From the NCBI RefSeq assembly GCF_000371805.1, contig NZ_AQUK01000001.1, positions 310,001 through 374,000 on the forward strand: a stretch of DNA of 64,000 nt, written 5' to 3'. This stretch comes from Methanocaldococcus villosus KIN24-T80. Its GTDB lineage: Archaea > AGJL01 > Methanococci > Methanococcales > Methanocaldococcaceae. Made by a program: the position numbers and the translations under genes. Shown in pieces: positions 4,547 through 31,655 of the stretch. The notes under the pieces were generated by a model. The model worked only from the letters and a program-made list of their open reading frames with translations, did not search any database and was not told the origin of the DNA. How positions within the stretch are numbered: position 1 is the stretch's first letter; each line of letters starts with the position of its first letter.

Positions 4547-5179
4547 TTATAGGTTATAAATATTAAACCTCCCTTCCCTTGCAAATCCTATTAATGTTAT
4601 ATCTCTCTCTTTAGCTAATTTAATAGCTTTATCTGTAGCAGGAGACTTTGATATTATCACTTTTATCCCTGAGTTTGCTGCTTTCTTGACAATACTTTTA
4701 AAAATCCTGCCACTAAATTTAAGGATAATATTGTTATAGTTATTTAAATAAGCATAACCTATAACTTTATCTACAGCACATGACCTACTTATATCTTCTA
4801 TGAGTGTTATAAACTTTCCATTATTGTTAAAAATACTTGCCCAATGAAAACATCCTGTTAATTTCCAATATTTTAACTCTAAATTATAATTTATAACCCT
4901 TTTTATAACATCTATGTTAGGTTTTTTAATACACAAATCTCTAATCTTTTTGCTACCAAAAACTAATATTTTTTCATTATCAACTAAAACTTTATCTATC
5001 TCATTAACATAACCCTCACTTATAGCATGCCCTATAGCAAATTCTTTTATATGAGAAGGGGATATTGAGAATGTGCCTATAAATTTATTATTAATAAAAA
5101 GCTCATACTCCTCTTCAATAGCAATAATATCCTCTTCTTTATTTAAATTGCTATTTATTATTTTAATTTTTGTTATCAT
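4547..5179 (-). CDS. fdhD: FdhD family sulfurtransferase, diverged
   Basis: FdhD hands sulfur to the molybdenum or tungsten cofactor of formate dehydrogenase. Family landmarks can be followed in order: the HIKEFAIGHAISEGY region, LTGCFHWA, IEDISRSCAVDKVIGYA, FSGRIFKSIVKKAA and the C-terminal TLIGFAREGRFNIYNL. Several landmarks are changed. The usual GRHNAVDK is SRSCAVDK, and the catalytic CxxC is reduced to one Cys in RDLCIKK. The length of 210 residues is on the short side. No formate dehydrogenase gene is in the window. The promoter is shared with the divergent RNA at 5229. Confidence 0.8.
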   Translation of the reverse strand: MITKIKIINSNLNKEEDIIAIEEEYELFINNKFIGTFSISPSHIKEFAIGHAISEGYVNEIDKVLVDNEKILVFGSKKIRDLCIKKPNIDVIKRVINYNLELKYWKLTGCFHWASIFNNNGKFITLIEDISRSCAVDKVIGYAYLNNYNNIILKFSGRIFKSIVKKAANSGIKVIISKSPATDKAIKLAKERDITLIGFAREGRFNIYNL

Positions 5180-5197
5180 AATTTCCCATTAGTAAAG

Positions 5198-5210
5198 TAT
5201 ATATATAAAA
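5198..5210 (+). promoter_or_regulatory. TATA element between fdhD and the SECIS-like RNA
   Basis: GTATATATATAAA lies 25-30 bases before the GC-rich RNA at 5229 on the plus strand. Read on the minus strand as TTTATATATATAC it lies about 25 bases before the fdhD start at 5179. It may drive both; fdhD would then be nearly leaderless. Confidence 0.55.
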
Positions 5211-5228
5211 TTTGGATATATTAAACAT

Positions 5229-5324
5229 CGGGGTGGGCGTGCAACGCTAACCATCTTTGGGGTATCCTACATCTACACACGTCCTCTGCTGGGAGGGAAC
5301 CCGAAAGGGACCTCCCAGCATAGG
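5229..5324 (+). ncRNA. Candidate small RNA carrying a SECIS-like hairpin
   Basis: A GC-rich island in AT-rich surroundings. A 10-bp stem TGCTGGGAGG (5287-5296) with CCTCCCAGCA (5311-5320) encloses an internal loop of GAA (5297-5299) against A (5310), then CCC/GGG closed by a GAAA tetraloop. This GAA-opposite-A core above and below short GC stems is the archaeal SECIS design and matches the fruA SECIS in this window. A second helix GGGCGTG (5235-5241) with CACGTCC (5278-5284) precedes it. A TATA box lies about 25 bases upstream and a T-rich tract follows at 5325-5336. The plus strand 5180-5320 contains no TGA, so no selenoprotein frame lies upstream. Confidence 0.65.
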
Positions 5325-5362
5325 TTTTTATTTTTTAATAGTATATATTCATACATATAAAT

Positions 5363-6487
5363 TTATAAAATCTCTTTTATAAGCTTTAAACCCAAACTTA
5401 AACCTAAAGACTTTAAAACTTTTAAAGCAATTATACTCTGTTTTTCCATATCCCCATATTTGTTTATATAATCAACAAGATCACTATCTTTTATTCTCTT
5501 TATTATCTCATCTATTGTCTCATTACCCATTTTTAAAAATAGTTTTCTAATCATTAATGATGTTTTTAACTCCTCTCCAAATTCCTTTCTCCATTCTTTA
5601 TCATACCTTCTTAAATCTCCACTACCATTTAAATACTCATTTATTACCCTACCTGCAATTCTTCCACCTAAAGAACCATAATATATCCCCCCACCACTCA
5701 ATGGTTTTACATGACAGGCAGAATCTCCTACCAATAATATGTTATCCTTAACAGTCTTTTTTAAATACCCAATAGGTAATGCTCCAACAGAAAATTCTAC
5801 AATAGAAGTGTTTTTGAACATCTCACTTTTATTATTTATAAATTTTAATAATTTATTATATCCTCCACCTTTATCTAATAATCCCACCCTAACCCTATCC
5901 TCCTCTAATGGTATTATCCAAACAAAAAAATTTTCAGAATATCTTTTATCTAAAAAAATATGGACAAAATCATCATCAATATTTTTAACATTAACCATCT
6001 CAAATTGGCATGCAGATAGCACCTCTCTACCTTTTAATAACCCTAACTTCATTCCTGTCCTAGCTCTTACACCTTCAGCAGAGACAATAACTTCAGGTTG
6101 AATTTCTATAACTTCTCCCCCATGTTTTATAATAACCTTATTTTCCTCCACTTCAGCATAAGATTTTAAAAGAATATCACACTTTTTAGCAGCTTTTATA
6201 GCAATATCTTTATCCATAACTTTTCTTTCCATTACATAAGCCATATCTTTTTCACTTTCAATTTTTAAAGTATTTTTAATTGTATGTATATATGCTCCTC
6301 TAACTTTATTAACAACTCCTTTAGGTTTTTCTAAAGATTCATAACACTTCTTACTAATAATCCCTGCACACTGTAAAGGAAAGCCAATACTCTGATGCTC
6401 TTCAACAATTAATACATCTCCTTTAATTTCCTTAGCTGTTATATTTCCTATAATACCTCCACCAATAACAACAACATCATATTCCAT
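5363..6487 (-). CDS. Geranylgeranyl reductase family flavoprotein
   Basis: A 374-residue FAD enzyme. The dinucleotide fold is GGGIIG at residues 9-14, and the second FAD motif is [31 protein letters not shown] near residue 37 carries the Cys common in archaeal members. Family members saturate the isoprenoid chains of archaeal membrane lipids, or of quinones and dolichols; which substrate applies here cannot be read. Its start overlaps trmY by 11 bases, and it ends the operon that begins with the PhoU-like regulator. Confidence 0.85.
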
Positions 6488-26606: not shown

Positions 26607-27160
26607 TTAACTCTCCTTGTTTTAATGGATGAGCGATTCAAACATAGTCCTACCCATATTTTGACCGTTTGTGTACAGTTTCCATCCTTGTTTTAATGGA
26701 TAAGCGATTCAAACAGTTTTAGAGATGACACAATGAACAGGGATAGAGGTTTCCATCCTTGTTTTAATGGATAAGCGATTCAAACGATAATATCAGTTAG
26801 TTATCCAGACTTCTTAAAGATGTTTCCATCCTTGTTTTAATGGATAAGCGATTCAAACATTATGTGGCTAGAATGAATAAAATAGCAATAGAAACAAATA
26901 ATATGTTTCCATCCTTGTTTTAATGGATAAGCGATTCAAACAAGCAAAGACGCAGCTGAGAAGTTAGAATCCAAAATGTTTCCATCCTTGTTTTAATGGA
27001 TAAGCGATTCAAACAGGATATGGATTATTTATATGAGTTTTATTACCATGGTTTCCATCCTTGTTTTAATGGATGAGCGATTCAAACATATAATAAAAAG
27101 ATCATTATTGAAAATTGTTGAAAGTTTCCATCCTTGTTTTAATGGATGAGCGATTCAAAC
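26607..27160 (-). CRISPR. CRISPR array, 8 repeats and 7 spacers, leader on the right
   Basis: The 37-bp repeats start at 26607, 26678, 26749, 26822, 26905, 26978, 27051 and 27124. Read on the minus strand they begin GTTTGAATCGC and end AAGGATGGAAAC, giving an ATGGAAAC handle of the type I style. The leftmost repeat has lost about the last eight bases of that orientation, as leader-distal repeats often do. Repeats 1, 7 and 8 read GATGAGCG where 2-6 read GATAAGCG (plus strand). Spacers are 34, 34, 36, 46, 36, 36 and 36 bases. No cas gene lies in the window. Confidence 0.97.
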
Positions 27161-31622: not shown

Positions 31623-31655
31623 CCCCAGGGTCCCTTTTTAGGGTTCCCCTTGGGG
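31623..31655 (-). promoter_or_regulatory. SECIS element of fruA (3' untranslated region)
   Basis: On the minus strand, directly after the fruA stop: CCCCA (31655-31651) pairs with TGGGG (31627-31623), A31650 is bulged, and GGG pairs with CCC. An internal loop of GAA (31646-31644) faces A31631, and CCC/GGG is closed by the loop TAAAAA. GAA opposite A between GC stems is the conserved archaeal SECIS core that directs Sec insertion at UGA. Confidence 0.9.

Follow-up and report, generated by a model that had tools for sequence, protein, structure and literature searches.

The window, by which we mean the whole 64-kb stretch of DNA analysed here, contains a gap of 183 nt between fdhD and a geranylgeranyl-reductase-like (GGR-like) gene, within which an RNA element lies on the plus strand. 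The features of the locus are as follows.

4547-5179, minus strand: fdhD, the left neighbour, outside the element; the name comes from the earlier reading and fits the sequence.
5196-5210, plus strand: TATA-like stretch AGTATATATATAAAA, about 30 nt 5' of the GGGG start of the element; candidate promoter.
5230-5320, plus strand: the whole RNA element, with a predicted transcript at about 5226-5335, roughly 95-105 nt.
5287-5320, plus strand: SECIS hairpin, with a basal stem (5287-5296/5311-5320), GAA (5297-5299) opposite A (5310), an apical stem of CCC (5300-5302) and GGG (5307-5309), and the loop GAAA.
5321-5336, plus strand: T-rich end, a putative archaeal terminator judged from its composition; a T-rich end also lies 3' of the hairpin in relatives.
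5363-6487, minus strand: GGR-like gene, the right neighbour, outside the element; named from a reading of its sequence.

An earlier note on this DNA had described a TATA box, a GC-rich segment and a T-rich end on the plus strand, and all three were found at these places. The segment 5230-5320 has a GC content of 59% against about 20% in its flanks, and only 12 of the 6,391 91-nt windows in the 64 kb reach this GC content. The TATA-like stretch, at a conserved spacing, and the T-rich end frame the element, and both the promoter and the transcript are predicted from them. The TATA-like stretch (5195-5215) is nearly symmetrical and could therefore double as the promoter of fdhD, driving the RNA on the plus strand and fdhD on the minus strand. 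In addition, the plus strand has no TGA from 5180 to 5320 and both neighbours are on the minus strand, in agreement with the earlier note. No credible match to the element was found with the Rfam covariance models at gathering or relaxed thresholds, and assignment to a known RNA family was rejected. Elsewhere in the window, a CRISPR array with DR7-type repeats is located at 26678-27160 on the minus strand.

The hairpin, TGCTGGGAGG-GAA-CCC-GAAA-GGG-A-CCTCCCAGCA, has the archaeal GAA/A core between GC stems. The strict pattern of this core occurs only twice in the window, in the element and in the fruA SECIS at 31648 (-), which bears out the likeness between the two that had been pointed out before. 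A covariance model (R2) was built from SECIS hairpins of other genomes only, with the sequences of the window genome left out. The element is its second-best match genome-wide (E 3.7e-7), and the model retrieved seven elements from the window genome at E<=0.002, all of them SECIS, and none further up to E=1. The z-score of RNA folding for the element is -2.9. Conservation of the core in relatives, which the earlier note had made a condition, was found: the GAA, with both of its A residues, and the opposing A are invariant in 12 of the 12 aligned genomes, as is GGGAACC (alignment A5), and pairs of the basal stem are altered on both sides in the window genome relative to its relatives. According to this comparison of genomes, the hairpin has the structure of a SECIS. 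However, it does not lie in the UTR of an mRNA that it could serve in cis. Since there is no TGA nearby, both flanking genes are on the opposite strand, and the selenogenes discussed below are about 440 kb away, the element is SECIS-like, yet not a cis SECIS.

The earlier note had seen two helices in the GC-rich segment, the second of which is this hairpin. The first does not stand as a main feature: the internal pairing of the 5' half is weak, and its consensus pairs show no covariation and are broken in part. The internal helix obtained by energy folding was rejected as a functional structure because covariation is found in the intermolecular pairing and not there. What is conserved instead is a complementarity to two mRNAs, those of hdrA (heterodisulfide reductase subunit A) and fwuB (formylmethanofuran dehydrogenase subunit B). 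When the 111-nt element was compared with the window genome at E<=1, it matched only itself, hdrA (5e-6) and fwuB (0.035). Both of the latter matches are antisense, and both adjoin the 3' side of the in-frame Sec UGA. The 57 nt 5' of the SECIS contain two overlapping antisense guides, which are given below with target positions counted from the U of the UGA as 0.

5230-5236, plus strand: hdrA guide, helix B, GGGGTGG, pairing with hdrA UGA+35..+41.
5240-5262, plus strand: hdrA guide, helix A, TGCAACGCTAACCATCTTTGGGG, pairing with hdrA UGA+10..+32 and starting 7 nt 3' of the Sec codon.
5258-5274, plus strand: proximal fwuB guide, TGGGGTATCCTACATCT, pairing with fwuB UGA+29..+45 in 17 contiguous pairs and overlapping the end of the hdrA guide.
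5230-5243, plus strand: distal fwuB guide, GGGGTGGGCGTGCA, pairing with fwuB at about UGA+109..+122 and shared with hdrA helix B.

In the window genome (G000; the other G numbers are genomes of relatives), the hdrA duplex of helices A and B has 30 of 30 Watson-Crick pairs and a predicted energy of -63.4 kcal/mol. Compensatory double changes occur at UGA+14, +29, +32 and +41 (A-U to G-C, U-A to C-G, A-U to G-C and C-G to A-U), all of them in G010, which we take to be M. infernus, or in G002. The target codons show the strongest synonymous constraint among 560 sliding windows of hdrA within the genus, and the same place is unremarkable in the f2 genomes, which have no such guide (34 of 430 windows score no higher). 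The pairing reaches 29-30 of 30 in G000, G002, G010 and G011, the genomes without a cis hdrA SECIS. Drift to 27-28 of 30 is confined to genomes with an hdrA SECIS in cis, and most of these have a cis guide beside it as well.

Pairing of the proximal guide with fwuB starts 26 nt 3' of the Sec codon. Guide and target covary throughout the order (27 genomes), and at UGA+32 all four Watson-Crick pairs are seen (TA 19, CG 4, GC 2, AT 1). When guides were reassigned among genomes, pairing with the own target scored 468 against a permuted maximum of 447, and none of 5000 reassignments reached it; with the 16 distinct pairs alone, the values were 269 and 259. Because related sequences are not independent, we read these figures as strong evidence rather than as a formal probability. 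The distal fwuB guide makes 13 of 13 pairs in the window genome and in most of the genus, and is absent from the f2 genomes. No comparable complementarity to hdrA or fwuB was found in the flanks of the vhuD, vhuU, fruA and selD SECIS of the window genome. A chance antisense match was rejected on the genome-wide specificity, the proximity to the UGA, the covariation and the synonymous constraint. The earlier note had offered a trans-acting RNA that binds the Sec insertion machinery as one option. The guides beside the hdrA and fwuB Sec UGA codons, with their compensatory changes, support the trans-acting part, and binding of the machinery would follow from the SECIS core. In keeping its complementarity to distant mRNAs, with compensatory changes, the element resembles a trans-encoded antisense small RNA. 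As in a guide-flanked SECIS of the fdhA1 type, the antisense segments pair shortly 3' of the UGA; the SECIS and the UGA are, however, at separate loci in G000, G002 and G010.

An accounting of SECIS elements in the window genome points in the same direction. Eight selenogenes with UGA were found (hdrA, fwuB, vhuD, vhuU, fruA, fdhA, a HesB-like gene and selD), of which vhuU was identified through its SECIS and the order of the genes, and tRNA-Sec is present. A cis SECIS accompanies six of the eight, namely vhuU, vhuD, fruA, fdhA, the HesB-like gene and selD. The 3' regions of hdrA and fwuB contain none, and scanning the cluster without a filter gave the same result; the window genome has no detected Cys copy of either gene. 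Meanwhile, the only orphan SECIS of this genome is the free RNA element. Since hdrA and fwuB are without a SECIS of their own, the free RNA would serve both. The hdrA 3'UTR of the window genome retains a 30-nt AUGA/AGAU hairpin stub with no contiguous basal stem; the AUGA/AGAU motif is known from the hdrA SECIS of Methanococcales (PMC11227280). An AUGA-stem-GAU hairpin without the GAA/A core is likewise kept in the hdrA 3'UTR (L033:6632-6665; also in G002, G003, G010 and G011), where the cis SECIS has been lost.

The element is present in 13 of the 14 genomes of the genus and missing only from G003, an incomplete genome. Full-length BLAST matches have 77-86% identity, the 5' half is almost invariant in an alignment of 12 copies, and a pattern scan of the genome contigs returned only four loci, all attributable to genomes of the genus. 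In ten relatives the homologous element lies just 3' of fwuB, about 70 nt past the stop, and is the fwuB 3' SECIS; in nine of the relatives a TATA-like stretch stands at the same spacing within the short gap between the fwuB stop and the element. The view that the hairpin has no selenoprotein frame accordingly applies to this locus and not to the relatives in which it follows fwuB. In three genomes the element is free-standing, in three unrelated places: between fdhD and the GGR-like gene (G000), between rsmA and an aminotransferase gene (G010), and upstream of thi4 (G002). In all three, the guides and the GAA/A core are kept. A misassembly in the window genome is unlikely, because the element is apart from fwuB in G010 and G002 as well. 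The G004 copy (L039, G004:C207) follows a fwuB fragment and has neither the TATA-like stretch nor the beginning of the hdrA guide; its upstream sequence is unlike all others and may be a MAG join.

Outside the genus, the fwuB 3'UTR of many members of the order has the proximal guide to its own coding region and no hdrA guide. The element would thus have descended from a fwuB 3'UTR SECIS that was already positioned by a guide on its own coding region elsewhere in the order. The hdrA guide would have been gained in this genus, together with a promoter-like TATA stretch, and separation from fwuB into a gene of its own would have come afterwards. A tree of HdrA and FwuB does not distinguish a single from a repeated separation.

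On this evidence we propose, with a probability of roughly 0.78, that the element is the gene of a small RNA from which the hdrA and fwuB mRNAs receive the selenocysteine signal in trans. It probably also belongs to a new class of non-coding RNAs, guides that direct recoding in trans, here on two mRNAs, and would have evolved stepwise from a cis 3'UTR SECIS. We infer separate transcription and recruitment of the Sec machinery in trans. An RNA of about 100 nt would be transcribed from its own TATA box, and its 5' half would pair downstream of the UGA, starting at a distance of 7 nt on hdrA mRNA or of 26 nt on fwuB mRNA; since the two guides overlap, one mRNA would be paired at a time. The 3' half, a canonical archaeal SECIS by its features, would be anchored through a linker of 24 nt on hdrA (7 nt past the UGA) or 12 nt on fwuB (26 nt past the UGA). 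For a ribosome positioned at the UGA, these anchor points would be on the side where the mRNA enters. Pairing would place the SECIS beside that ribosome, where a SECIS-binding factor and aSelB would deliver Sec-tRNA, although we know of no SECIS-binding factor in archaea. In a reporter of M. maripaludis, guide flanks on a 5' SECIS were dispensable; they raised the activity per mRNA about two-fold and lowered the mRNA about three-fold (PMC11881835). In trans, there would be no other link between SECIS and mRNA, so the guide should matter far more than in this cis reporter.

The same reduction of mRNA by complementary flanks would also suit an antisense regulator, that is, an RNA that blocks elongation or triggers decay of the hdrA and fwuB mRNAs, for example when selenium is short, with the SECIS as a decoy or leftover. 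The pairing evidence fits such a role equally, and an antisense lncRNA is known to inhibit translation of human selenoprotein P (PMC8266573). However, the GAA/A core and the basal stem with its paired changes are kept in every genome, including the three with a free-standing copy, and in other genomes it is the fwuB SECIS itself that is homologous to the element. Moreover, repression would leave hdrA and fwuB without any evident SECIS. We therefore consider a regulator of this kind unlikely.

No less unlikely is an auxiliary role, in which the cis SECIS of vhuD (for hdrA) and of vhuU (for fwuB) drive insertion and the free RNA only boosts or times it. The genes hdrA, vhuD, vhuU and fwuB share one cluster, about 440 kb from the element, with two SECIS; the vhuD SECIS is about 1.9 kb downstream of the hdrA UGA and might serve hdrA, and the vhuU SECIS, upstream of fwuB, might in principle serve fwuB. 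An archaeal SECIS can function at a long distance or in a 5' position (PMC9622424; PMC11881835), and sharing of a SECIS has been suggested for hdrA-frhD (PMC11227280). Nevertheless, the flanks of these two SECIS contain no guide to hdrA or fwuB, and most genomes of the genus, in which the neighbours are the same, have one SECIS dedicated to hdrA and another to fwuB.

That the element is a decaying relic without function, either a displaced copy of the fwuB 3' SECIS or the leader of a lost fdhA, is very improbable. It has indeed left its ancestral place, and fdhD adjoins it in the window. However, both guides are fully paired, including compensated changes in the genomes with a free-standing element, the SECIS stem is changed on both sides, and three free copies in different places are intact. 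The derivation from a lost fdhA leader, put forward in the earlier note, was rejected: an intact fdhA is found at another place in the genome (G000:C1:230312), where it has a SECIS and a guide in its 5'UTR, and the homologue in relatives is the fwuB 3' SECIS. Finally, a minus-strand 5' leader of fdhD is hardly credible, for although fdhD is transcribed away from the element and the TATA stretch is nearly symmetrical, the reverse strand has no GAA/A core, fdhD is separated from the element by a TATA-like stretch on the minus strand, and the neighbours are different in G010 and G002.

The trans-acting SECIS RNA proposed here is accompanied by cis guides in the same order. The selD 3'UTR (L144-L158) opens with 14-22 nt that are perfectly or nearly perfectly complementary to selD from about 7-10 nt past the Sec UGA (for example CTGCCCAGCACCGAG, CTCCCCAGTGCTGAGC and CTCCCCAGTACTGAGC, which covary between species). 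The target, UGA+11..+28, covaries with the guide within the genus and in G016/G024; the remaining f2 genomes have no such guide, and their SECIS is usually only a short way past the stop codon. The hdrA 3'UTR of many genomes in both families (L037-L048, L090-L103) has a cis guide of 16-35 nt before the SECIS; its target lies within about UGA+28..+73 and, in the genus, borders directly on that of the trans RNA. Beside the 3' SECIS of the HesB-like selenogene of the window genome (G000:C1 about 825066, L138), we also observed an apparent guide to UGA+35..+53 of the same gene; it was not seen in G007, presumably M. jannaschii. The fdhA guide of the window genome lies in the 5'UTR and is antisense to fdhA itself, and guide flanks of fdhA have already been published (PMC11881835). 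Those of fwuB, hdrA, selD and the HesB-like gene were not described in the open-licence papers searched. These cases (fwuB, hdrA, selD, fdhA) suggest a possible general rule in thermophilic Methanococcales, by which a SECIS far from the UGA is brought there by an antisense guide.

If the proposal is true, a recoding signal need only be near the ribosome and not on the message. The archaeal mechanism, including the SECIS-binding factor and how a distant SECIS reaches the ribosome, could then be tested through a small RNA that can be tagged, used for pull-down and reprogrammed, and reprogrammed guides could put selenocysteine at chosen UGA codons in methanogen genetics.

No natural trans-acting SECIS is described in the open-licence papers searched, in which all natural SECIS act in cis; a trans-acting SECIS guide RNA is a kind that we did not find described in this literature, built from known parts. 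The element resembles the canonical archaeal 3'-UTR SECIS of fwuB and fruA in its GAA/A kink-turn-like motif, GC basal stem and short GC apical stem. In contrast to these, it is not on any selenoprotein mRNA of the window genome, and its targets are about 440 kb off. A proposal for viral mRNAs (PMC11510084) likewise holds that antisense pairing beside a UGA can supply a SECIS in trans. However, as described there, it concerns viral mRNAs that capture host mRNAs, with readthrough reporters, and includes no dedicated small RNA and no covariation between guide and target. The antisense lncRNA of human selenoprotein P (PMC8266573) is also a natural RNA complementary to a selenoprotein mRNA, but it is human, inhibits translation and is not described as a SECIS donor. 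The closest parallel in design is the fdhA1 5'-UTR SECIS of Peiter et al. (2025, PMC11881835), whose antisense flanks, conserved in Methanococcales and longer in thermophiles, would place the SECIS just 3' of the Sec UGA. That SECIS acts in cis on one target through two short flanks (7 and 10 nt in M. maripaludis), whereas the present element is a separate gene with two mRNA targets and overlapping guides of up to 30 bp.
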